Position numbers and translations under genes: made by a program
Notes under the pieces: model-generated
Seen by the model: only the letters and a program-made list of their open reading frames with translations
Database searches by the model: none
Told to the model about the DNA's origin: nothing
In this document: one piece after another, positions 2,272-31,017 of the stretch
Numbering within the stretch: position 1 is the stretch's first letter
Layout: each line of letters starts with the position of its first letter
Assembly: GCF_002156705.1 (NCBI RefSeq)
Contig: NZ_CP019893.1
Span: 2,232,001 to 2,296,000 of the forward strand
Direction of reading: 5' to 3'
Length of the DNA: 64,000 nucleotides
Source: Natrarchaeobaculum aegyptiacum
Lineage (GTDB): Archaea; Halobacteriota; Halobacteria; Halobacteriales; Natrialbaceae

Positions 2272-3813
2272 ATGACCGAACACGCAGCTTTCACGATGGA
2301 TCGACGAACCGCACTGAAAACAGCGCTCGGAGGAGGGACGCTCGCGCTCGCGGGCTGTCTCGCCGACGGAGCGAGCGACGACGACTTCCGCATCGGCGCG
2401 CCGTGGGACGTCGGCAGCGATCCGCTCGAGGGCGGCCACGCGCTCAGACGAATGGGCGTCACCGAGGCACTCGTCGCCGTCGACTACGACGCCGAACCCG
2501 AACCGGGGCTGGCGACCGACTGGGAACGCGTCGACGACACCCGCTGGGAGTTCTCCCTGCGGGAGGGCGTCACGTTCCACGACGGCACAGCGCTCACCGC
2601 CGACGCCGTCGTCACCTCCCTCGAGCGCACCGTCGACGCGGAGGCGTTCGCTGGCGTCCCGATCGACGTGGTCGAGGCCGTCGACGACTCGACCGTCGGC
2701 GTCGAGACCGAATCGCCGTTTGCCCCGCTGCCGGCTCACCTCTCGCGACACGAGGCGGTCGTTCTGGGCCCTGGCTCGTTCGACGACGGGGAGCTGACGG
2801 AGCCGATCGCCACCGGTCCGTTCGTCGCCGATTCGATCGATCCCGGTTCACAGCTCCGGGTGGTCCGAAACGACGACTACTACGGCGAGACCCCGGCGTT
2901 CGAATCCGTTCGTTACGAGGTCGTCGAAGACGACCAGACCCGGCGGATGCGACTCGAGAACGGCGAACTCGAGATGGCACGCATCCTCCCACAGGAGGCC
3001 GTCGACTCCCTCGAAGCGACCGACGGAATCGACGTCTATACGCCCGAAATCCCTCGGATCAGGTTTCTGACGTTCGACACCCAGTCCGAGCCGTTCGACG
3101 ACCGGCGCGTTCGTCAGGCCGTAACCCACGCCGTCGACCGGGAGGCGCTTACCGACTCCGTCCTCGAGGGCGTCGACGACCCGGCGATCGCTCCCATCTC
3201 CCCCGAGATGACCGACTGGGCCGATCCGGATCTCGAGGAGTCGCTGTTCGATCCCGACCGGGCCCGTGACCTGCTCGAGGAGGCTGGCTGGACGATGGCC
3301 GCGGACGACGAGATCCGACGTCGTGACGGTGAGATGCTCTCGATCGAGATCGTCACTTTCGATGCCCGGAGTCTCCCACTGATCGCCGAAGTACTGCAGG
3401 GCCAGCTTGCCGACGTCGGTGTCGACCTCGAGATCACGGTTCTCGAGTACGGGACGATGCTCGACACCGTCTCGCAGGGCGATTTCGACGCCTACCTCAC
3501 CTCCTGGGGAACGCTGTGGTATCCCGACCCCGACAGGCTCGCCGACATGTTCCACTCCGAGGGCGACCTCTACCACGGCTACGAGAACGAGACGGTCGAC
3601 GCGTTACTCGAGGAGGCCCGCGAACTCGACGACCGCGAGCAGCGACGGGACCGGTACCACGAGGTCCAGTCGATCGTCCTCGAGGATGCACCGATCGCCG
3701 TCCTGACGAGCTACACGAACGTCGTCGCAACGGCCTCGACCGTCAGCGGCTACGAGCCCCACCCGACGGAGATCACCTACGGGCTCGAGCGGATCGACCT
3801 CGAGTCCAGCTGA
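2272..3813 (+). CDS. Peptide/solute-binding lipoprotein of ABC importer (SBP family 5)
   Basis: A 513-residue extracellular binding protein. The N-terminus carries a Tat-type signal (DRRTALK, then a hydrophobic stretch) and lipobox LAGC with Cys29, so it is probably exported folded and lipid-anchored. Domain order is the usual one for the family: the N-terminal lobe with REGVTFHDG near residue 100, then FDDRRVRQAVTHAVDRE, and the C-terminal segment with DVGVDLEI and GYENETVDALLEEA. The gene follows the ATPase stop by 3 bases and closes the operon. An internal ATG at 2296 would give a shorter signal peptide and is an equally plausible start. The ligand cannot be told from sequence. It serves here as an internal reference for the permuted paralogue at 23.1 kb. 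Confidence 0.92.
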   Translation: MTEHAAFTMDRRTALKTALGGGTLALAGCLADGASDDDFRIGAPWDVGSDPLEGGHALRRMGVTEALVAVDYDAEPEPGLATDWERVDDTRWEFSLREGVTFHDGTALTADAVVTSLERTVDAEAFAGVPIDVVEAVDDSTVGVETESPFAPLPAHLSRHEAVVLGPGSFDDGELTEPIATGPFVADSIDPGSQLRVVRNDDYYGETPAFESVRYEVVEDDQTRRMRLENGELEMARILPQEAVDSLEATDGIDVYTPEIPRIRFLTFDTQSEPFDDRRVRQAVTHAVDREALTDSVLEGVDDPAIAPISPEMTDWADPDLEESLFDPDRARDLLEEAGWTMAADDEIRRRDGEMLSIEIVTFDARSLPLIAEVLQGQLADVGVDLEITVLEYGTMLDTVSQGDFDAYLTSWGTLWYPDPDRLADMFHSEGDLYHGYENETVDALLEEARELDDREQRRDRYHEVQSIVLEDAPIAVLTSYTNVVATASTVSGYEPHPTEITYGLERIDLESS

Positions 3814-16904: not shown

Positions 16905-17178
16905 ATCTCGGCGTTCGGCGGTGCGTCCGTTAGTTATCGCTCACGTACACGAACTGGAGCGGCAGAAAAACGGGTCGACGCCCAGTTCTCGTCAGGGTCT
17001 CCGGCCGGGCGAAAGCCCGTACTACGGGTGAAACGATCGGCGGCGGTTATACCGGACGAGCCACCGCTGGCGGCTCTCACTCGACCGCCGATTCGAGTGG
17101 TCGATGGCTTCCCCTCGAGTCGCCGGTGCCGAAGGCCCAACAGAAGCTATTTGCGCTTCCCTCGGCAACTCCCGTCCG

Positions 17179-18546
17179 ATGACCGTCGACCTCGCCGTCA
17201 GGAACTGTACCGTCGTCACGCCCAGCGGTCGCGTCGCGGACGCGGGCGTGGCCGTCGACGACGGGACTATCGTCGCCGTCGGTCGCTCCGACCAGCTTCC
17301 AGAGGCCGAGCGAACGCTCGACGCAGATGGAAACGTCCTCGTCCCCGGCATCGTGGACTGTCACATCCACAATCGAGAACCGGGTCTCGAGTACAAAGAA
17401 GACTGGGAGACCGCGACGCGGGCCGCAGCTGCCGGCGGCGTGACGACCGTCGTCGGGATGCCGAACACCGACCCCGTCATCGACCGACCCGATCACCTCG
17501 AGTTGAAACTCGAGCGCGGCGAGGCCTCGGCGCACGTCGACTTCGGGAGTTACGTCGTCGTCACCTCCGAAAACGTCGACGAGATCGGCGCGCTCGACGA
17601 GGCCGGCGCACTCGGCTACAAGGTCTTCCTCGGGTCGACCGTGGGCGACGTCCCGCCGCCGAGCGACGGTGAGATCATCGAGGCGATGGAGCGCATCCAG
17701 GAGACCGGCAAGCGCCTCGGCTTCCACGAAGAAAACGGCGAGATCATCGACTACTACACCGAGCGCTTCCAGACCGAGGGCCGCAACGAGCCGATCGATC
17801 ACGCCCACTCACGCCCGGTGATCGCCGAACGCGAGGCCGTCGAGCGCATGATCACCTTCGCCGAGGAGACCGGCGCGAAGATCCACATGTTCCACGTCTC
17901 CTCGGGGTCGGCCGCCGAGGCAGTCGCCCGCGGCAAAGACCGCGGGGTCGACGTGACCGCCGAAACCTGCCCGCACTACCTCTGGTTCACCGAGGAGGTT
18001 CTCCGGGAGAAAGGCAACGTCGCGCGCGTCCAGCCGCCGATCCGCGACGCCGACGAGCACGAGCGCCTCTGGTCGGTCGGCATCGACGACGGCGCGATCG
18101 ACTGCATCGCGACCGACCACGCACCCCACACCTCCGACGAAAAGATGGTCGACGACCCATTCGGCAACACCTGGGATGCAATCTCGGGCTTCGTCGGCCT
18201 CGAGACCGAGGTCCCCGCCATGCTCACCTTCGTCGATCAGGGTCGGCTTTCCCTCGAGGAGTGGGTCTACCGCCACGCCACACGTCCGGCGCAGGTCTGG
18301 GGTCTCTACCCCCAGAAAGGGTCGCTACAGGTGGGAACGGACGCCGACTTCACGATCGTCGACCCGGACCGAGAGTGGACGCTCGAGGATGCCGACGAGC
18401 TCCACTCGAAGAGCCGCGTGACGCCGTTCGAGGGCGAGTCGTTCGTCGGCGACGCCGTTACGACGGTCGTCCGCGGCGAGATCGTCTACGACGACGGCGC
18501 AGTCGTCGGTGACTCTGGATACGGGACCGCGGTGGGACTCGAATAA
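17179..18546 (+). CDS. pyrC: Dihydroorotase
   Basis: A 455-residue amidohydrolase closing carbamoyl-aspartate to dihydroorotate in pyrimidine synthesis. The metal ligands are visible: His62 and His64 in DCHIHNREPG, carboxylated Lys148 in GYKVFLG, His183, His239 in FHVSSG, and Asp313 in ATDHAPH. The substrate-binding NREPG and MPNTDP are typical of dihydroorotases rather than hydantoinases or allantoinases, though the latter are close relatives. The start at 17179 begins MTVDLAVRNCTVV; an extension to 17104 lacks conserved sequence. PyrD for the next step lies 23 kb away, unlinked. Confidence 0.92.
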   Translation: MTVDLAVRNCTVVTPSGRVADAGVAVDDGTIVAVGRSDQLPEAERTLDADGNVLVPGIVDCHIHNREPGLEYKEDWETATRAAAAGGVTTVVGMPNTDPVIDRPDHLELKLERGEASAHVDFGSYVVVTSENVDEIGALDEAGALGYKVFLGSTVGDVPPPSDGEIIEAMERIQETGKRLGFHEENGEIIDYYTERFQTEGRNEPIDHAHSRPVIAEREAVERMITFAEETGAKIHMFHVSSGSAAEAVARGKDRGVDVTAETCPHYLWFTEEVLREKGNVARVQPPIRDADEHERLWSVGIDDGAIDCIATDHAPHTSDEKMVDDPFGNTWDAISGFVGLETEVPAMLTFVDQGRLSLEEWVYRHATRPAQVWGLYPQKGSLQVGTDADFTIVDPDREWTLEDADELHSKSRVTPFEGESFVGDAVTTVVRGEIVYDDGAVVGDSGYGTAVGLE

Positions 18547-20899: not shown

Positions 20900-21907
20900 A
20901 TGTCCCTGCTTTCGATAACCGACCTGCACGTACAGTACGACGTTCCCGACGGCGTGGTCAGAGCCGTCGACGGCGTCAGCTTCGACATCGAGCCCGAGAC
21001 GATCGTCGGCGTTCTCGGTGAATCCGGCTGTGGAAAGTCGACGCTTTCGAAGTCGATCGTCAGGGCCCTGCCCGACAATGGCGCGATTCGGTCCGGTGAG
21101 ATTCGCTTCGACGGGCGGGATCTCTCGACGCTGAACGGTGAAGCGGTCCGTCAGGTCCGATGGGACCGAATCGCTTACGTCCCCCAGAGTGCGATGGGAA
21201 GTCTCGACCCCGTCTGTACGATCGAGGAACAACTGGTCGAGACGATCACCGCCCACCGGCCCGACACCTCGAGACGGGAGTGTCTCGACAGGGCGGGGGA
21301 AGTGCTCGACCTCGTCGGGATCAGTCCGTCGCGGCTCTCGAGTTACCCACACGAGTTGAGCGGCGGGATGCGACAGCGAGTCCTGCTGGCGATGTCGCTA
21401 CTGCTCGAGCCGGACCTCATCATCGCGGACGAGCCGACGACCGGTCTCGACGTGTTGATACGTGACAAGATTTTGAACGACATCGAGATGTATCGCGACG
21501 AGTTCGGCATCTCGGTATTGATGGTCTCACACGACATCGCCGACCTCGTCGAGACGTCCGACGAGATGATCGTGATGTACGGTGGCAAGATCGTCGAACA
21601 GGGGCCAGCGAAGACGCTGTTCGACGAGGCCGTCCACCCCTACACCATGGGCCTCCGCGGCTCGCTGCCCGAACTTCACGACGACCCCGAGGACCTCATC
21701 GAGATGAAGATGGAGCCACCGGACCTGCAGTCGCCGCCGGAAGGGTGTCGGTTCGTCAACAAGTGTCCGTTCGTCACCGAGGAGTGTACCGTCGATCATC
21801 CCGGTTTCGTCGAGGCAAAGCCGGGTGTCGAATCAGCGTGTTACCGCGCCACCGAGGCGTCCGCACTTCGCGAGAAAGCGACTACGGTGAGCTGGAAAGA
21901 TGACTGA
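20900..21907 (+). CDS. Peptide-type ABC transporter ATP-binding protein (DppD-like)
   Basis: A 335-residue ABC ATPase. It has Walker A GESGCGKS at about residues 39-46, signature LSGGMRQRV, Walker B LIIADEP and switch His in VSHD, then the oligopeptide-transporter C-terminal extension with CRFVNKCPF. It overlaps the next ATPase gene by 8 bases, and together they form the heterodimeric engine of an importer whose binding protein and two permeases follow. Energised uptake of peptides or similar solutes at the cytoplasmic face is the family role; substrate unknown. Confidence 0.93.
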   Translation: MSLLSITDLHVQYDVPDGVVRAVDGVSFDIEPETIVGVLGESGCGKSTLSKSIVRALPDNGAIRSGEIRFDGRDLSTLNGEAVRQVRWDRIAYVPQSAMGSLDPVCTIEEQLVETITAHRPDTSRRECLDRAGEVLDLVGISPSRLSSYPHELSGGMRQRVLLAMSLLLEPDLIIADEPTTGLDVLIRDKILNDIEMYRDEFGISVLMVSHDIADLVETSDEMIVMYGGKIVEQGPAKTLFDEAVHPYTMGLRGSLPELHDDPEDLIEMKMEPPDLQSPPEGCRFVNKCPFVTEECTVDHPGFVEAKPGVESACYRATEASALREKATTVSWKDD

Positions 21908-22937
21908 GAAGACTGTACTCGAGGTGGAGGGACTGAAGAAGTACTACGGCATGGGCTCGAGCTTCCTGGGAAAGCTCCTCGGCCGACAGGAGCACCTCAG
22001 AGCCGTCGACGATGTCGACCTGGCCGTCGAGGAGGGCGAGGTCCTCGGCATCATCGGTGAGAGCGGCTCCGGGAAGTCGACGCTCGTCGAGACCATCCTT
22101 CGACTCGAGGATCCGACCGAAGGATCGATCCGCTTTGGCGACGACGAGGTAACCGCCTACTCGGGAGGTGACCTCCGGGAGATGCGCCAGCGAGCCCAGA
22201 TCATCTTCCAGGACCCTTACGAGACGCTGAACCCGAAGCAGACGGTCTTTCAGGCGATTTCGGAGCCGTTGCGGAATTTCCACGACCTCCCGTACGAGGA
22301 ACTCGAGGAGATCGTCGCCGAGACGCTCCACGACGTTGGCTTGCGCCCACCGGAACAGTACATCCACTCCTATCCGGAGCAACTGAGCGGCGGTGAGCGC
22401 CAGCGCGTGAGCATCGCCCGCGCGGTCGTCCTCGAACCGGAACTCCTGATCGCCGACGAGCCGCTTTCGATGCTCGACGTCTCCCTGCAGTCGGGGATCA
22501 TCCGGATGCTCAACCGACTGCAAGAGCGGATCGGGTTCTCGATGCTGTACGTCTCACACAACCTCGCGGTCGTGCGACTCGTCGCCGACCGGATCGCGGT
22601 GATGTATCGCGGCAAGATCGTCGAACAGGGCCCCGCCGAGGACGTCATCGCGGATCCACAGCATCCCTACACGCGGGCACTGGTCTCGAGTATTCCGACG
22701 CTCTCGGGCGACCGGGAACGGGTCTTGCTCCCGCCCCCCGAGGACGACGCCGACGTCGCTGGCTGCCAGTTTGCACCACGCTGCCCCGATGCGACCGACC
22801 ACTGCAGGGAGGCGGTTCCGGCTCTTGAGCACGTCGACGGCAGAGACGTCGCCTGTTACCTCCATCACGACGCGGAGGAAGGGAAAAACGAGGCCAACGA
22901 GCAGATACCGAACGCGCCTGCGGTCGGTGCCGAGTAA
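21900..22937 (+). CDS. Peptide-type ABC transporter ATP-binding protein (DppF-like)
   Basis: A 345-residue ABC ATPase and partner of the preceding gene. Walker A is GESGSGKST near residue 56, the signature is LSGGERQRV, and Walker B is LLIADEP. An early insertion ([18 protein letters not shown], about 16-33) is typical of DppF-type subunits whose first strand is interrupted. The C-terminal Cys motif reads [14 protein letters not shown]. It overlaps the upstream gene by 8 bases; the binding-protein gene starts 131 bases downstream with its own promoter. Confidence 0.93.
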
Positions 22938-23068: not shown

Positions 23069-24712
23069 ATGGTAGACGATACCAGTCAATCCGATGGTGG
23101 AGTACAGACCTCACGCCGGAAATTGCTGCAAGCAGGTGGCGTGACTACTGCTGCGATCCTTGCAGGGTGTGCTGATGGGCCGGGTGCGGCCGCAGGTGAG
23201 CGCGTCGGACCGCTGACGCTCGAGGTCGGCCAGAACACGAACTTCCCGGACGTCGCCCAGGAGGTAGCGAGGCAGTGGGGCGAACTCGGCGTCGAGTTCG
23301 AGATCGAGACCGACACCTGGGGACCGTACGTCCCGCGAATTTACTCCGACAACGAGTTCGAGAACGTCGCCCACTCGCCGTGGGGATCCTCGCCGGACCG
23401 GATCGACCCGGACTTTTTCCTCTCGACGTACCGTTCGGATTCGGTCCAGAACATCCCGGGGTACGAAAACGAGGAGTACGACGAGCTCTTTCGTGAGCAA
23501 CGGGCGGCCTACGATCCCGAAGAGCGCACAGAGATCATCAGCGAGATGCAAGAAATCCTCCACGAGGACCTTCCGGAGATCACCTACCTCTGGGTGCAGG
23601 CGACGCTGCCGGTCAACTCCCGGCTCTGGGACATTACTCCGACGGAGTTCGTCGGCGCTCGGACGACCGGGTCGATGACCGTTCTGACTGCCGAACCGCT
23701 CGAGGACGAGCGGCAACTGGTCGTCGGCGGTGAACAGGAACTCGACGCGCCCAACCCGCTCGCACCGGACTCCAACGACGTCCAGTATCTCTTCAAACTG
23801 GCCTACGACACGCCGATGCGCGTCGGTCTGGACGGCGAAGTCACCGAGTGGGCCGTCGAGGACGTCGAGGAGGTCGACGAGGAGACGCTCGATCTGACGC
23901 TCCGGGAGGGAATGACCTTCCACGACGGCGAACCGGTGACGGCCGAGGACCTCGCGTTCACGTTCAACTTCCTCTCAGAGTACAATTTCCCGAGTTTCGA
24001 CGCCTACACTGCCGACATCGACGGGGCAGAGACCGAAACCGACCTCACCGTTCGCGTCGAACTCGACGGCCCCAACGTCGCGTTCGTCAACAGCGCGCTG
24101 ACGTTCATCAATCTCCTCCCCGAACACATCTGGGCGGACGTTCCGGACCAGGCCGACGAACCGGTCAACTGGAACGCAGACGTCGACGACCTGGTCGGGA
24201 GTGGTCCACTCGAGATCACCGAGTGGACCGGCACGGAACTGCAGTACGAGGCGTTCGACGATCACTTCGAACCCGTCGCCTACGACGAGTTTATCTTCGT
24301 CAACCGGGCGAGCATGGAGGCGATCCGGAGCGACTTCGAGGCCGAGAACATCCACATGACAACCTCGTCGCCACCGATCTCGGTCACCGAGGACCTCGCG
24401 GAAAACGACTACATCGAGATGTCGAACGCACCAGGGGTCCTCCAGCAGAAGTTTAGCTTCGACCTCTCGACGCCGCCGTTCGACGATAAGGCGTTCAGGC
24501 AGGCACTGTTGCTGGCCGTCGATACGGACCGTCTCTCGGACATTTTCTGGGACGGCTACACCGACATCGGCGACGGGACGCTCCTGCACCCGCGGTCGGA
24601 ACTCACGAGCGATCACCTCCCGCAGGCTGAACAGGATCTCGAAGAGGCACGAACCGTCCTCGAGGACGCAGGATACACGCTCGAAGACGGCGTGCTCTAC
24701 TACCCCGAGTGA
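23069..24712 (+). CDS. ABC solute-binding lipoprotein with circularly permuted family-5 domain
   Basis: A 547-residue Tat lipoprotein (RR at 16-17, lipobox LAGC with Cys34) of the peptide-binding SBP family 5. The domain order is swapped. Residues 44-211 are what is normally the C-terminal third: LTLEVGQNTNF, ELGVEFEIETDTWG, SSPDRIDPDFFLSTY, then GYENEEYDELFREQ and YLWVQATLPVNS. Residues 216-547 are the normal N-terminal two-thirds: RQLVVGGEQELDAPNPLAP, LREGMTFHDGEPVTAEDL, then PPFDDKAFRQALLLAVD, ending LEDAGYTLEDGVLYYPE. In ordinary members the last motif runs straight into the first block, as in the paralogue at 2272-3813. The frame is intact, nothing is duplicated or missing, and both permeases follow 24 bases on. 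So it is probably functional, importing an unknown solute. Confidence 0.88.
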   Translation: MVDDTSQSDGGVQTSRRKLLQAGGVTTAAILAGCADGPGAAAGERVGPLTLEVGQNTNFPDVAQEVARQWGELGVEFEIETDTWGPYVPRIYSDNEFENVAHSPWGSSPDRIDPDFFLSTYRSDSVQNIPGYENEEYDELFREQRAAYDPEERTEIISEMQEILHEDLPEITYLWVQATLPVNSRLWDITPTEFVGARTTGSMTVLTAEPLEDERQLVVGGEQELDAPNPLAPDSNDVQYLFKLAYDTPMRVGLDGEVTEWAVEDVEEVDEETLDLTLREGMTFHDGEPVTAEDLAFTFNFLSEYNFPSFDAYTADIDGAETETDLTVRVELDGPNVAFVNSALTFINLLPEHIWADVPDQADEPVNWNADVDDLVGSGPLEITEWTGTELQYEAFDDHFEPVAYDEFIFVNRASMEAIRSDFEAENIHMTTSSPPISVTEDLAENDYIEMSNAPGVLQQKFSFDLSTPPFDDKAFRQALLLAVDTDRLSDIFWDGYTDIGDGTLLHPRSELTSDHLPQAEQDLEEARTVLEDAGYTLEDGVLYYPE

Positions 24713-24736: not shown

Positions 24737-25723
24737 ATGTCTAACGATTTATCCAACTTCCTCGTCCGACGGTTCGTCGGGTTCGCGGTGATGCTCTACG
24801 TCCTGTTGACGGTCATTTTCGTGCTGTTCCGGATCATGCCCGGGGATCCAACCGCGATGCTCGTCACCGGTCGGTTCACCGAGGAAGCGAGGCAAGCACA
24901 GATCGAGAACTTCGGGTTGCACCGGCCACTGCACGAGCAGTACGTGATCTTCATCTCGAACGCCCTGCAGGGCGACTTCGGGATGTCGTTTTTCTACAGA
25001 GAGCCGGTCGCAGACGTGATCTTTCCGGCGCTGATCAACACGATGCTGGTCATGGTTCCAGCGCTGACGCTCGTGATGATCTTCGCGTACGTCTGGGGCT
25101 CGTTCGTGGGCTGGAACAAGGACACGGCGATCGACCGCTGGGGGACCTACATCCCGGTGTCGATCCGAGCAATCCCACACTTCGTCATGGGACTGTTGCT
25201 GTTGATCGTGTTCTCGTACACGTTGGGCTGGTTCCCGACGGGCGGGATGACACCCATCGGTGAGAGCCAGATGAGTTACGTCGAGATGGTAACCTCACGG
25301 ACGTTCTTCCACTACGCCGCGTTACCGTTCCTGACGGCCTTGCTCCAGTACGCGGCCGACCCGATGCTGTTGATGCGCAACAACATCATCTCCGAGCGAG
25401 AGAAAGATTACATCGAACTGCACCGACTCAAGGGACTGACCGAAGACCAGATCCGAAACCACGCCGCGCGAAACAGTATGCTTCCACTATTGACCTGGCT
25501 GACCCCGATGGTCGGGATTGCATTCGGCGGACAGATCCTCATCGAGGTCGTCTTCTCGTGGCCGGGCATCGGGCGCGAACTCGTCCTCGCGGCGAACCGT
25601 CAGGACATGCCCGTCGCACAGGCAGCGTTCTTCATGATCGCCGTCGTGGTCCTCCTGACGAATCTCCTCGTTGACCTGGCCTACGGCTACTTCGATCCGC
25701 GGATAAGCTACGGGAAACAATGA
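24737..25723 (+). CDS. Peptide-type ABC transporter permease (DppB-like)
   Basis: A 328-residue inner-membrane permease. The N-terminus (FLVRRFVGFAVMLYVLLTVIFVLFRIMPGDP) is the standard DppB opening helix and loop, and the EAA coupling loop appears as HRLKGLTEDQIRNHAARNS. About six membrane segments are visible. A GGAGG at 24716-24720 lies 16 bases before the ATG, rather far for a Shine-Dalgarno site. It overlaps the next permease by 4 bases (ATGA) and forms the channel with it. Confidence 0.93.
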   Translation: MSNDLSNFLVRRFVGFAVMLYVLLTVIFVLFRIMPGDPTAMLVTGRFTEEARQAQIENFGLHRPLHEQYVIFISNALQGDFGMSFFYREPVADVIFPALINTMLVMVPALTLVMIFAYVWGSFVGWNKDTAIDRWGTYIPVSIRAIPHFVMGLLLLIVFSYTLGWFPTGGMTPIGESQMSYVEMVTSRTFFHYAALPFLTALLQYAADPMLLMRNNIISEREKDYIELHRLKGLTEDQIRNHAARNSMLPLLTWLTPMVGIAFGGQILIEVVFSWPGIGRELVLAANRQDMPVAQAAFFMIAVVVLLTNLLVDLAYGYFDPRISYGKQ

Positions 25724-26622
25724 TCAGTGAACGACACGTTACGAAACTCACCAACGTCCGTCGATCGGTCTCGACGTTCGTCGCGCCGGTCTTCCAGGAT
25801 CGCTGGGGAAAGATCGCCTTCGCCGTCATCGCGATCTACGCGGTAATCGGCCTCGTCGGCCCGTACCTCCCCATCGCACCGCCGCTCGAGCCGTTGATGC
25901 ACCCCGACGGCGGCTACGCACAACTCGATTCGCCGAGCTGGGCGTTCCCGCTGGGGACGACCTACGTCGGTTACAGCGTCCTGAGTCAGACGATTTACGC
26001 GTTCCGAACGTCGCTGTTCGTCGGCGTGCTCGCGGCCGTGCTGGTGCTCACCGTCGGCGTGAACATCGGCCTCATTTCGGGCTACTACGGCGGGAAAGTC
26101 GACAGCGCGCTCATGGGGCTGACCGACCTCGCCTACGGCCTGCCGTTCTACCCGTTCGCGATCATCCTCGTCGCCATCTTCGGCTCGAGCACGCTCACTA
26201 TCGCGCTCGTGATCGCACTCGTCTTCTGGCGATCGATCGCGCGGATCACTCGCTCGGAGACGCTCACACTCAAAGAGCGCGAGTTCATCAAGAGCTCGAA
26301 AGCCGTCGGCACGTCGAACCTCAGGATCATGTACTACCACATCTTGCCGAACCTGCTGCCGCTGATCCTGATCTACTTCGTCTTCGCCGTCACGTGGGGC
26401 ATCCTGCTCGAGGCCAGCCTGAGTTTCATCGGCCTCGGTGACCCCAATACGGTCAGCTGGGGCCTGATGCTTCACGAAGCGTTCGAGGCCGGTGAACTCG
26501 CGAACGCCTGGTGGTGGGTGCTCCCACCGAGCTTCTGTCTCTGGCTGTTCATCTGGAGCCTCTACGTGGTCGCCCGCAAGCTCGAGGACAACGCGACGGT
26601 CTCGGCAAAAGGCGGCGCGTAG
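25720..26622 (+). CDS. Peptide-type ABC transporter permease (DppC-like)
   Basis: A 300-residue permease with the DppC features: cytoplasmic N-terminus, first membrane helix at about 29-47, a long external loop with FPLGTTYVGYSVLSQTIY, and the EAA loop KSSKAVGTSNLRIMYYHILP. A C-terminal WWWVLPPSFCLWLFI helix ends the protein. Start and upstream stop overlap as ATGA. It completes the importer encoded from 20900. The transcript runs towards the convergent epimerase gene; a T-rich CGTTTTTCTTC just beyond the stop may serve as a terminator. Confidence 0.93.
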   Translation: MISERHVTKLTNVRRSVSTFVAPVFQDRWGKIAFAVIAIYAVIGLVGPYLPIAPPLEPLMHPDGGYAQLDSPSWAFPLGTTYVGYSVLSQTIYAFRTSLFVGVLAAVLVLTVGVNIGLISGYYGGKVDSALMGLTDLAYGLPFYPFAIILVAIFGSSTLTIALVIALVFWRSIARITRSETLTLKEREFIKSSKAVGTSNLRIMYYHILPNLLPLILIYFVFAVTWGILLEASLSFIGLGDPNTVSWGLMLHEAFEAGELANAWWWVLPPSFCLWLFIWSLYVVARKLEDNATVSAKGGA

Positions 26623-26748: not shown

Positions 26749-27873
26749 TCAATCCGTCCGACAGCGCTCGAGCGCCTCTGAATCGAGTTCGACGCCGAGC
26801 CCGGGCGACGATGGAACGGTGCAGGTCGCGTCTGCTATCCGCCACTCGTCGTCGTTCGCGAGCAGCGAGTCACCGACGTCGACGTTGAAGATTCCCGTCG
26901 GATACGCGACCTCGGGGGTCGAAACCGCGAAGTGGGCACTCGCCGCCTGACCGATTCCGAGTTCGAGCATCCCACCCACGAAACAGCTCACGCCGTGGGC
27001 CGCGGCGACGGTTGCGGCCGCCTTCGCACCGGTAAACCCACCGGTCTTTGCGAGTTTGAGGTTGACGATATCGGCGCTTCCCCGGGTCGCCAGCCTGGCG
27101 ACGTCGCTCGCCGAAAAACAGGCCTCGTCGGCGAGGATCGGCACCGGAACACGGTCGCGCACGCGGGCGTGACCGTCGACGACGTCGCGGGAGACCGGTT
27201 GCTCGACGAACGCGAGTCCGCCGGCGTCGTCGTCCAGCCTGCGGATCTTTCGAATCGCCTCGTCGGGGCTCCACGCGCCGTTGACGTCGACCCGGATTCG
27301 AGCGTCGGGCACTGTTTCGCGGATCGTTCGCACGTTTTCCCGTTCGGCCGCGAAGTCGTCACCGCCGACTTTCACCTTGAACGCCTCGTAGCCGTCGGCC
27401 GCGGCGGTCCTGGCTTCCTCGGCGACGCGAGATGGCTCGTCGATGCTCACCGTGTAATGACACTCGAGTTCCGGGTCTCCCCCGACAGGCCCACCGAGGT
27501 GCTCGTACATCGGCAACTCTCGCTCGCGCGCCAGCGCGTCGTGTAACGCGACCTCGAGGCCGTACAGTGGGAACGGCTCGTCTGCGAGCCGACTCGAGAG
27601 GTCCTCGACGAGTCGGGGAATGCGATGAACTCGCGTTTCATCTACTGCCGGGACGAGGACGTCCTCGAGGAGGTCCAGACACGCTGATTGTGTCAGCCCC
27701 CGCGGCCAGTGGGCCATGGGTGCGATTTCCCCGTAGCCCGTGACCCCGGTGTCCGTCTCGAGGACGATCAGGATGCGGTGGTACTCGTCGTCGCCGTCGG
27801 CCGATTTGCTGGTTTTGAGCGCCTGTTCGACTGGGACCGAGATCGGAATGGGTGTCACTCGTTCGACACGCAT
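26749..27873 (-). CDS. Enolase-superfamily epimerase/cycloisomerase (dipeptide epimerase-like)
   Basis: A 374-residue member of the mandelate racemase/muconate-lactonising branch. The catalytic set is complete: Lys166 and Lys168 in FKVKVG, metal ligands Asp196 (VDVNGAW), Glu224 (FVEQPV) and Asp249 (LADEAC), and the opposite-face Lys273 in NLKLAKTGG. The KxK/KxxK arrangement is shared by dipeptide (Ala-Glu) epimerases, muconate cycloisomerases and o-succinylbenzoate synthases. Convergence with a peptide-type importer favours a dipeptide or N-acyl amino-acid epimerase, but this is inference. The 88-base gap on its 5' side separates it from the chelatase-like operon transcribed in the same direction. 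Confidence 0.85.
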   Translation of the reverse strand: MRVERVTPIPISVPVEQALKTSKSADGDDEYHRILIVLETDTGVTGYGEIAPMAHWPRGLTQSACLDLLEDVLVPAVDETRVHRIPRLVEDLSSRLADEPFPLYGLEVALHDALARERELPMYEHLGGPVGGDPELECHYTVSIDEPSRVAEEARTAAADGYEAFKVKVGGDDFAAERENVRTIRETVPDARIRVDVNGAWSPDEAIRKIRRLDDDAGGLAFVEQPVSRDVVDGHARVRDRVPVPILADEACFSASDVARLATRGSADIVNLKLAKTGGFTGAKAAATVAAAHGVSCFVGGMLELGIGQAASAHFAVSTPEVAYPTGIFNVDVGDSLLANDDEWRIADATCTVPSSPGLGVELDSEALERCRTD

Positions 27874-27961: not shown

Positions 27962-29044
27962 TCAGTCGTCGACGTACTCGCGTTTCGCCCGTTCGACCGC
28001 CGACTCGACGTCCATCTCGGTGTCCTCGAACGGCAGTTTCGTCAGGCGGTGGGTGAGCACGAGCGGGGCGACGTCCTCGACGTGGTCGATCGATACGACT
28101 GGTTCGTCCCGGTACGCGGCGAGCGCCCGCGCCGCCCGGCGAAGGGTGTTGTCCCCGCGATGGCCGTCGACCTCGAGGTGGACGTTGATCGCCGCGATGG
28201 CCTTCTCGACGGGTTCGGGAACGGTGACGTCGGGCAGTCGTTCGCGCGCGGCGACGATGCGCTGGGTGAGCTCGCGTTGCTGGTCCGCGTACTCGGCGCG
28301 GAAGATCTCCGGGTCGGCGTCGAAGGCGGCCCGGCGACGGCTGATCTCGACGCGCTGGTCGACGTCGTCGATGCCGGCGACGTCGACGACGAGGCCGAAG
28401 CGGTCGAGCAGCTGTGGCCGCAGGGATCCTTCCTCGGGATTCATGGTGCCGACGAGCATGAACTCGGCGGGATGGCGGACGGAGACGCCCTCGCGCTCGA
28501 CGACGTTTTCGCCCATGGCGGCGGCGTCGAGGAGGACGTCGACGAGGTGGTCGTCCAGCAGGTTGACCTCGTCGACGTAGAGGACGTTGCGGTTGGCCTC
28601 GGCGAGGATGCCGGGGTCGAACTGGCGGATGCCGTCGGTGACGGCTCGTTCGACGTCTAGCGTCCCGACGAGGCGGTCGGCGGTGGCGTTCAGCGGCAGG
28701 TCCACCACGCGCATGGGCTCCGTCTTCGTCGGAAGCGTCTCGCCGCTCTCGTAGCGCTCGGTGCAGTCCGGGCACATGCGGTCCGGGCTGGTCGGCGGAC
28801 AGCCGTACGGACAGTCCGCGACGACCGTCCGATCCGGCAACACCTCGGCGAGCGCGCGGACGGTCGTCGACTTGGCGGTTCCTCGTTCGCCACGAACGAG
28901 AACCCCGCCGACGTCGGGATTGATGGCGTTGAGAATCAGGGCCGTCTTCAGCGATTCTTGCTCGACGATCGCTGCGAACGGGTACCTGGTCGTTCGATTC
29001 GTCGATTCAGCTCGGTCGTCGGTCGCGTGTTCCTCGATGTTCAT
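27962..29044 (-). CDS. AAA+ ATPase, magnesium-chelatase ChlI/BchI-like subunit
   Basis: A 360-residue AAA+ protein of the chelatase/MoxR branch. Walker A is GERGTAKST (residues 52-60) and Walker B is LYVDEVNLLDD; Cys77, Cys81, Cys90 and Cys93 form a zinc-ribbon-like insertion between them. Arginine-finger regions and the C-terminal lid follow. ChlI-type rings drive metal insertion into tetrapyrroles or remodel metalloenzymes together with a VWA-domain partner, which is encoded just upstream and overlaps by ATGA (29041-29044). No CobN/ChlH large chelatase subunit is encoded nearby. Residues about 112-276 are nearly identical, also in DNA, to the partner's AAA domain. A longer frame to 29125 is a shadow of the partner gene. 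Confidence 0.9.
   Translation of the reverse strand: MNIEEHATDDRAESTNRTTRYPFAAIVEQESLKTALILNAINPDVGGVLVRGERGTAKSTTVRALAEVLPDRTVVADCPYGCPPTSPDRMCPDCTERYESGETLPTKTEPMRVVDLPLNATADRLVGTLDVERAVTDGIRQFDPGILAEANRNVLYVDEVNLLDDHLVDVLLDAAAMGENVVEREGVSVRHPAEFMLVGTMNPEEGSLRPQLLDRFGLVVDVAGIDDVDQRVEISRRRAAFDADPEIFRAEYADQQRELTQRIVAARERLPDVTVPEPVEKAIAAINVHLEVDGHRGDNTLRRAARALAAYRDEPVVSIDHVEDVAPLVLTHRLTKLPFEDTEMDVESAVERAKREYVDD
28217..28711. repeat. 495-bp near-identical direct repeat, copy 1 (in the ChlI-like gene)
   Basis: This aligns without gaps to 30238-30732 (constant offset 2021) with six mismatches seen by eye, about 98.8% identity, including third-codon positions. Outside the tract the two genes diverge sharply at both ends. 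Such a pattern between tandem paralogues is typical of recent gene conversion. Confidence 0.95.
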
Positions 29045-31017
29045 GGCTGGATGAAGTTTCCGTCTGGGAGGTCGATCAGGGGGACGTACTCGGCGTCCAT
29101 GGCGTCGGCCAGCGTCCGGTTCCACTCGTACTCCTCGCGTTTGGCGTCTCTGGCGGCACTGTCACTCCAGAGGGAGTACTTCGCGTCGTTCAACGCGAAT
29201 CCGGTGTCGAGGTAGACCGCTGACACGTCTTCTTCGTCGAACAGCGAGGCGAACTGTACCGCCTCCTGTTCGGGATCTGCCCCGTTCTCGTAGGGAACGT
29301 TCACCTTCCCGTCGCTCAGCACGAGCACGACCGGGTACAGGTCGTCGTTGCCGCGTCGTTCGCGCTCGATCAATCGGTAGGCGTCGACGAGTCCGTGAGA
29401 GAGCGGCGTATTGCCACCGACCCGGAGCCGTGAGACGCGCCGGCGCGCCCGTCGAACGTTGTACGTCGGCGCTACCTCGACCGACGCGTCCTTCCCACGG
29501 AACGAGATCACCGCAACCTTGTCCCGCGTTCGATAGGCGTCCTCGAGCAGCGAGAGCACGGCGCGTTTGGTCTCGCGCATCTGCGGGCCGTTCATCACGC
29601 TTCCGCTCGAGTCGACGACGAGGACGACGAGTGCCTCGGTCGTCCCCTCGCGGAGCTTCTGACGCAGGTCTTCGGGCTCGACGACGATCGACCGGTCCTC
29701 GTTCGCTTCTCGGTACTCCTGGTTGAGCGCGGCCGCACGAACGGTGGCGTCGACTGCAATATCGTCGACCGTCTCGTCGTCCTGTGCGCGAACGTACCGT
29801 CCACTGCGCCGGCGGACGTCCGACGGGACTCGCCTCGCGTACCGATCCCGGAGTTCGCGGTCCTTCTCGAGCGTGAAGGCCGTGTCGTCGATCGGGTAGA
29901 CTTCACCGTCCTCGACGATGAGTTCGCTCCGCCCGCTGTTGTTCGGGACCTGTCCGTCGGTTCCCTCCTCGGAATCGGACTGTCCGTCGTCGGCCTCGCG
30001 GGTGACCTCCTCCGGCAGGGTCATCGTCGCGCTGGTACTTCCACCCGTCTCCTCGACGGACTGCATCCGGTGGGGCAACGCGAGGGACATCGCCTCCTCA
30101 CAGTGGGCTGTCGTCACCGTTTCCTCACCCTCGAGGGCGGCGATCGCACGCGCCGTCTTGCGGACGGTGATGTCGCCGCGGAGCCCGGCGACGTTGCCGT
30201 CGACTGCCGCGTTCGAAATGTCGTCTTCGATGGGCTGGGGAACGGTGACGTCGGGCAGTCGTTCGCGCGCGGCGACGATGCGCTGGGTGAGCTCGCGTTG
30301 CTGGTCCGCGTACTCGGCGCGGACGGTCTCCGGGTCGGCGTCGAAGGCGGCCCGACGGCGGCTAATCTCGACGCGCTGGTCGACGTCGTCGATGCCGGCG
30401 ACGTCGACGACGAGGCCGAAGCGGTCGAGCAGCTGTGGCCGCAGGGATCCTTCCTCGGGATTCATGGTGCCGACGAGCATGAATTCGGCGGGATGGCGGA
30501 CGGAGACGCCCTCGCGCTCGACGACGTTTTCGCCCATGGCGGCGGCGTCGAGGAGGACGTCGACGAGGTGGTCGTCCAGCAGGTTGACCTCGTCGACGTA
30601 GAGGACGTTGCGGTTGGCCTCGGCGAGGATGCCGGGGTCGAACTGGCGGATGCCGTCGGTGACGGCTCGTTCGACGTCTAGCGTCCCGACGAGGCGGTCG
30701 GCGGTGGCGTTCAGCGGCAGGTCCACCACGCGGACCGCTCGAGTCTCCGTCTGCAGTTGCTCGCCGCACTTCTGGCGGCTTCGGCATCGATCACACAGGT
30801 CGGTGGCTGACGACGGGTCACAGCCGAACGGACAGTCGGTGACGACCGCCTGCTCCGGAAGGACCTCCGAAAACGCCCGTACGGCGGTCGATTTGCCGGT
30901 CCCTTTCTCGCCGTAGAGTAACACACCGCCGATATCGGGGGCGACAGCGTTCACCGTAAGCGCACGTTTCAGCTCGTCCTGGCCGACCATCGCCGCAAAT
31001 GGAAACGGTCCTGTCAT
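29041..31017 (-). CDS. AAA+/VWA chelatase-like protein (ChlD/BchD-like fusion)
   Basis: A 658-residue protein. The N-terminal AAA+ domain has Walker A GEKGTGKST (36-44), zinc-ribbon-like Cys62, Cys66, Cys75 and Cys78, and Walker B LYVDEVNLLDD. An acidic, Ser-rich linker (about 330-380) leads to a C-terminal von Willebrand A domain. Its MIDAS is complete: VVDSSGSVMNG at about 465, GGNTPLSHG, and VLSDGKVNVP. Unlike many ChlD proteins the AAA motor keeps intact Walker motifs. With the ChlI-like partner it should form a hexameric ATP-driven complex that binds a metalloenzyme or chelatase target through the VWA domain. The operon places a metalloenzyme directly upstream. Confidence 0.9.
   Translation of the reverse strand: MTGPFPFAAMVGQDELKRALTVNAVAPDIGGVLLYGEKGTGKSTAVRAFSEVLPEQAVVTDCPFGCDPSSATDLCDRCRSRQKCGEQLQTETRAVRVVDLPLNATADRLVGTLDVERAVTDGIRQFDPGILAEANRNVLYVDEVNLLDDHLVDVLLDAAAMGENVVEREGVSVRHPAEFMLVGTMNPEEGSLRPQLLDRFGLVVDVAGIDDVDQRVEISRRRAAFDADPETVRAEYADQQRELTQRIVAARERLPDVTVPQPIEDDISNAAVDGNVAGLRGDITVRKTARAIAALEGEETVTTAHCEEAMSLALPHRMQSVEETGGSTSATMTLPEEVTREADDGQSDSEEGTDGQVPNNSGRSELIVEDGEVYPIDDTAFTLEKDRELRDRYARRVPSDVRRRSGRYVRAQDDETVDDIAVDATVRAAALNQEYREANEDRSIVVEPEDLRQKLREGTTEALVVLVVDSSGSVMNGPQMRETKRAVLSLLEDAYRTRDKVAVISFRGKDASVEVAPTYNVRRARRRVSRLRVGGNTPLSHGLVDAYRLIERERRGNDDLYPVVLVLSDGKVNVPYENGADPEQEAVQFASLFDEEDVSAVYLDTGFALNDAKYSLWSDSAARDAKREEYEWNRTLADAMDAEYVPLIDLPDGNFIQP
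30238..30732. repeat. 495-bp near-identical direct repeat, copy 2 (in the AAA/VWA gene)
   Basis: Partner of 28217-28711, same orientation. It encodes residues about 96-260 of the AAA/VWA protein. The substitutions cluster near its proximal end, where the encoded peptide reads DPETVRAEY instead of DPEIFRAEY. Confidence 0.95.

Follow-up and report, generated by a model that had tools for sequence, protein, structure and literature searches.

The gene at 23069-24712 (plus strand) of the window, meaning the whole 64,000-nucleotide stretch of DNA that was analysed, encodes a naturally circularly permuted receptor of SBP family 5 (PF00496, OppA/DppA-type). The permutation, proposed in a first-pass annotation of the sequence, is borne out by profile, structural and comparative evidence. 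It is real but not a one-off: the protein belongs to a large and apparently old family, and several further independent permutations were found. The whole is very probably best explained by a working permuted lipoprotein receptor of an Opp/Dpp-type importer, from an old family, in a protein group where permutation has recurred, most likely by a duplication route.

Block order of the receptor gene

The product, P0001 (547 residues), is read from an intact frame. Residues 1-43 (23069-23197) carry a twin-arginine signal, a lipobox (LAGC) and a short linker, as judged from the sequence SRRKLLQ...ILAGC and a lipobox scan. Residues 44-211 (23198-23701) correspond to the C-terminal block of ordinary members (OppA residues ~354-516), while residues 216-547 (23714-24709) correspond to their N-terminal block, with the conserved end AGY...DGxLxxP just before the stop. 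The four residues between them (212-215; 23702-23713) form the new junction of the old C-terminus to the old N-terminus. Across the permuted family the conserved features include REGMTFHDG (279-287 in P0001) and an AGY-x-W-D-x-x-G-R-L end just before the stop.

PF00496 matched P0001 in two stretches whose order is swapped, the best pairing residues 260-541 with profile positions 4-283, for 172 bits in all against a gathering score of 32.4. When the protein was rotated (216-547 followed by 44-211), a single stretch covered positions 4-364 of the 368 in the profile and scored 183.5 bits. P0002, a NikA-like SBP family 5 paralogue of ordinary order (2272-3813, plus strand), served as a reference within the window. 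BLASTP aligned P0001 to P0002 in two crossed pieces, 252-538 to 70-342 and 58-169 to 367-474. Rotated P0001 gave one colinear alignment of 428 columns with 108 bits, compared with 75 bits unrotated.

All 508 rotations of mature P0001 were scored against an HMM of unpermuted relatives, so that the junction was placed without prior assumption. The best rotation started at residue 208 (199-210 tied) with 293.9 bits, whereas the natural order scored 201.0 and the median was 201.7. The coordinates originally given for the swapped blocks are thus right by profile, rotation scan and paralogue alignment.

Predicted fold

An AlphaFold2 model of the whole of P0001, built with 43 permuted homologues, reached a pLDDT of 86 and a pTM of 0.83. 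In a sequential fold alignment, its residues 209-547 matched chain residues 18-357 of 1xoc (Z 24.8), and other OppA/DppA-type chains were matched over similar ranges. Since such an alignment of the whole model covers the larger block only, the first block was folded and searched alone. The resulting model (pLDDT 82) matched residues 354-516 of OppA (1b52) with a Z of 12.2 over 158 residues (rmsd 3.5). The two blocks therefore cover OppA ~354-516 and ~1-360 and tile the fold once, in agreement with the original claim that nothing is lost or repeated. In the predicted models all segments of the OppA/DppA-type fold are present once, and they are matched in swapped order.

On the question of a Type I/Cluster B assignment, the fold matches listed for P0001 (best rows only) were SBP family 5 chains. 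When a profile of the permuted family was run against the PDB, each of the five alignments shown paired it with known chains in crossed order; throughout the best 60 rows the best stretch was the N-terminal block alone. No permuted solved structure was among the fold-search matches listed.

Operon and orthologous locus

The receptor gene lies within an operon that is intact, as first described, and has the order OppD-OppF-SBP-OppB-OppC, with all genes on the plus strand. OppD- and OppF-type ATPases (20900-21907 and 21900-22937; both ABC_tran + oligo_HPY) precede it, and OppB-type (24737-25723; BPD_transp_1, BPD_transp_1_N) and OppC-type (25720-26622; BPD_transp_1) permeases follow. Nearby are a mandelate racemase/muconate lactonizing-type (MR/MLE) enzyme (26749-27873, minus strand), an amidohydrolase (17104-18546), a cupin, two AAA/VWA chelatase-like genes and an aminopeptidase-like gene. 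MR/MLE homologues also adjoin permuted receptors in other haloarchaea. These neighbours hint at a substrate derived from amides or amino acids.

The closest homologue of P0001, at locus L095 of another haloarchaeal family, is permuted and 63-65% identical. Its locus keeps the whole transporter (OppB 79%, OppC 72%, OppD 70% and OppF 64%) together with AAA and VWA genes. Between the two receptor genes, changes by codon position numbered 141, 110 and 243; their concentration at the third position is consistent with constraint on the gene.

AAA and AAA-VWA chelatase-like genes are kept beside the transporter in two haloarchaeal families (window 27962-31017; L203:10934-14009), and at L203 they are placed between oppF and the receptor gene; they may be linked to the transporter in function. 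The adjacent AAA (ChlI-like) genes at 28116-28981 and 30137-31002 share 84.5% identical DNA over ~880 bp, and the orthologous locus of another haloarchaeal family has the same pairing within its own genome at 85.6%, suggesting gene conversion or repeated duplication.

Distribution of the permuted family

Scanning genome contigs with P0001 gave ~60 loci at which the match runs colinearly across the junction. The colinear permuted family spans Halobacteria and at least six bacterial phyla, with hosts among Alpha- and Gammaproteobacteria, Clostridia, Limnochordia and Deinococci as well as a spirochaete, an actinomycete and an anaerolinean. Haloalkaline or hypersaline hosts are numerous, but as the scan was seeded with a haloarchaeal query this need not reflect a habitat bias. 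Of the SBP family 5 ORFs in the collected loci, 117 were permuted and 39 ordinary; as similarity to P0001 decided which loci entered and some occur more than once, the ratio is not an estimate of frequency. In addition, 36 plasmid records of many genera each contain a single colinear match that spans at least 80% of P0001, for example from Halalkalicoccus jeotgali and Ketogulonicigenium vulgare, and the annotated plasmid matches are labelled plainly 'ABC transporter substrate-binding protein'.

The permuted form is common in Halobacteria, where a junction profile matched 26 of 31 relatives (E 1e-10) and the strongest matches span the whole junction. The source genome, a single contig, encodes seven SBP family 5 proteins, of which five are permuted and two have the ordinary order. 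In sampled bacterial groups the form is rare: at least 3 of 246 genomes in the phylum of the actinomycete and at least 3 of 251 in that of the anaerolinean. At least 7 of 245 genomes carry it in the order of L015, and at least 1 of 249 (the centre genome only) in the phylum of Halomonas. All four counts are lower bounds, obtained with strict thresholds and a capped number of candidates, and each includes the centre genome.

Phylogeny of receptors and partner permeases

For tree building the two blocks were aligned separately and then concatenated, which removes block order from the tree. Seventy of 72 permuted rows fell in one group (SH-aLRT 81), and in a smaller careful tree the support of the main permuted group was 97/97. 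Mapped on a careful tree of 55 rows, the order label needs five changes, at least four of them forced by starred branches; with the root not inferred, these changes may include reversals. In one tree, three ordinary-order sequences fell weakly (85/73) inside the main permuted group, so that a single origin of this clade is not certain and reversals are possible. The ordinary-order receptors of L149 (G055) and of L066 and L069 (Desulfobacterales) branch next to the permuted group or weakly inside it. They are the strongest candidates for an unpermuted sister of that group or for reversions.

OppB proteins encoded beside permuted receptors form a clade of their own (29 rows, with one ordinary-partner row at the base; SH-aLRT 100), and those beside ordinary receptors form another. 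This split is expected from co-inheritance of operons, so the OppB tree alone does not show adaptation.

Additional origins of the permuted order

The block swap appears to have occurred on at least three separate occasions, probably four, within one stretch of ~30 residues; numbered on P0002, the cuts lie between residues 327 and 355. The most legible case comes from a genus of the Archaeoglobaceae, a family name that follows from our taking G143 to be Archaeoglobus fulgidus DSM 4304. The receptor is permuted in three genomes (G133, G143 and G592), among which G143 is a single contig of 2,178,400 bp, and has the ordinary order in four congeners (G113, G594, G128 and G593) and in other genera. 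Permuted and ordinary receptors share 83-86% identity over the larger block and 85-89% over the smaller. The permuted loci are L177, L178 (G143:C1:1580000-1594000) and L179, and the ordinary ones L180-L183; at L178 the permuted gene is divergent from its own permease operon.

The ordinary gene reads ...YLKEAGYSEDNKLKLELWW..., and the permuted gene ends in ...YLKKAGYSE. It starts with a signal, a lipobox and a Lys/Glu-rich linker followed by KLKIELWW, and its internal junction reads FRYYLVY-SEEQKD-TITIGVTDK. An EE-K linker motif occurs twice, after the lipobox and at the junction, as expected of tandem duplication with loss of the outer parts; the repeat is short and is not proof. The region upstream of the permuted genes resembles that upstream of the ordinary genes, and sensitive BLASTN found no leftover fragments of the lost blocks around the permuted genes. 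The case is a separate and very recent event, and its junctions are readable.

A second case is the L006 clade, comprising a copy in the source genome (C1:717501-719210) and copies, at 42-60% identity, in nine further haloarchaea. The ordinary receptors nearest to this clade share 44-46% identity with it and nest with it at 100/98. The cut lies before a helix, ~20 residues upstream of the other cuts, which fall after the helix, and this difference argues for an independent origin whatever the tree. The OppB of L006 groups with the partners of ordinary receptors. A search of plasmid records with L006 added nothing informative. The probable fourth origin comes from one draft genome of the Archaeoglobaceae (G610), in which the receptor at L190:4733-6472 is permuted and without a lipobox, and has a PGF-CTERM-like C-terminal anchor. 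The anchor is at the other new terminus.

A 1299-residue ORF at L132, considered as a tandem-duplicated intermediate, proved to be an over-extended frame upstream of a normal permuted gene. The route first suggested, tandem duplication followed by loss of the outer parts, is plausible, with the Archaeoglobaceae junctions as its best support; nevertheless, no intermediate was seen.

Proposed function and anchoring

In ordinary receptors both termini lie close together on one lobe, as given by the textbook domain limits of OppA, and joining them therefore costs little. The permuted chain most likely folds to the usual two-lobed Venus-flytrap, in which a short linker bridges the two old termini on the lobe that they share. 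The new chain ends would be found in the opposite lobe, at the turn that follows the A-x-x-L-L-x-x-A-G-Y helix. As the signal and lipid anchor are still N-terminal, this topology suggests that the membrane leash leaves from the lobe opposite to that used by ordinary relatives.

By analogy with the Venus-flytrap scheme of DppABCDF (PMC12136057) and from the operon, the receptor most likely binds a small amide- or peptide-like solute on the outer side of the cell and passes it to OppBC, with transport powered by OppDF. DppA holds its dipeptide through R383 (carboxylate) and D436 (amino group) (PMC12136057). R383 is not conserved in the permuted family profile, and the alignment of D436 is ambiguous owing to a two-residue insertion. 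The first-pass description as a peptide-binding protein thus stands as regards SBP family 5 membership, but a peptide ligand is unproven in a family that binds many ligands.

Origin and retention of the permuted order

There is next to no chance that assembly or sequencing error, or a broken gene, scrambled the order in one genome only. A block swap seen in one gene alone is a typical artefact, and the first-pass annotation had named relatives in the normal order as its sign; instead, L095 and dozens of other homologues share the P0001 junction, five permuted members occur on the single source contig and the plasmid records of many genera are colinear. The relatives and the intact reading frame rule out an assembly error or pseudogene. 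A single permutation ancestral to all permuted SBP family 5 proteins, with trees misplacing the outliers, is quite improbable. The grouping of 70 of 72 permuted rows, the long branches in the tree and an AU test of one clade that is only moderately negative (p-AU 0.026, 45 rows) speak for it. Against it stand the three permuted Archaeoglobaceae species, nested among ordinary ones that are 83-89% identical in both blocks, and the L006 clade, with its ordinary sisters, its upstream cut and an OppB of the ordinary-partner type. The main permuted family is old and patchily spread, and other archaeal lineages have opened the same stretch on their own. The most likely route is tandem duplication, fusion in frame and then removal of the outer parts.

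As to why the order persists, it seems unlikely to be an adaptation of membrane-tethered receptors in which a leash on the other lobe aids docking, although a similar anchoring adaptation has been proposed for TpMglB-2 (PMC4990184). A lipobox was found in 62 of 66 archaeal permuted rows and the partner OppB proteins form their own clade, but lipidation is just as frequent among ordinary archaeal members (18 of 20), no lipobox was seen in 42 of 49 bacterial permuted rows (all by a simple pattern scan, with no signal-peptide predictor) and the separate OppB clade is also expected from simple common descent of operons. With bacterial members mostly devoid of a lipobox, anchoring is not a general explanation. 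It is similarly doubtful that a permutation hot spot of ~30 residues, opened independently at least three to four times in archaea and bacteria and giving rise to one family of many phyla, was accompanied in tethered lineages by selection for docking altered by the leash switch and a matching permease lineage. Somewhat favoured is a neutral account, in which the stretch is permissive and duplication-derived permutants still fold and drift to fixation. Several cuts within one ~30-residue stretch and the occurrence of free and tethered permuted members alike fit this account, whereas the main family has long been retained, has many paralogues and is broadly spread, which some advantage could explain as well. 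At present the neutral, permissive-site account is more economical than anchoring adaptation.

Comparison with known systems

Natural circular permutations are usually old and visible only through fold comparison. The permuted and ordinary sisters of one Archaeoglobaceae genus make questions about permutants directly testable: how they originate, whether the duplicate stage is functional, what is paid or gained, and what role the anchor-bearing lobe plays in an ABC importer. The cut stretch is also a natural guide for engineering permuted biosensors. The permuted group is easy to overlook, because profiles split its proteins in two and records give a plain generic label. No NCBIfam model was found for it (best match 106 bits against a cut-off of 650), and no paper describing a permuted SBP family 5 member was found in the open-access literature; the first-pass remark that none was known agrees with these sources and with the solved structures among the matches listed.

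P0001 resembles the other members of SBP family 5 (Cluster C; OppA, DppA, AppA and NikA) in its blocks, fold segments and OppBCDF partners, and differs in its swapped block order and in having its termini in the other lobe. Permuted binding proteins are already known from other clusters. TpMglB-2 (Tp0684), for which the name 'Type Ic / Cluster Bc' was proposed, is likewise a naturally circularly permuted lipoprotein receptor of an ABC importer, but it belongs to the Type I sugar-binding fold cluster and has a different cut site and a poor sequence match to its unpermuted counterpart; the available portion of the report describes no recurrent or recent origin (PMC4990184). Glycine-betaine- and molybdate-binding proteins and CysB form a circular-permutation family that is also permuted within periplasmic-binding-protein-like folds; unlike the present case, it has identities below 24%, was found by structure only and lies outside SBP family 5 (CPSARST, PMC2395249). 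Permutation by duplication is itself the classical model (PMC3320104). What is new here is a permuted group within SBP family 5, together with how widely it is spread, the recurrence of permutation in one stretch and a recent case whose unpermuted sisters still live. In that case, the receptor of G143 and two congeners, the cut lies in the same stretch as in P0001 and the lipobox is again at the new N-terminus, but the event appears separate and recent, and ordinary sisters survive in the same genus.
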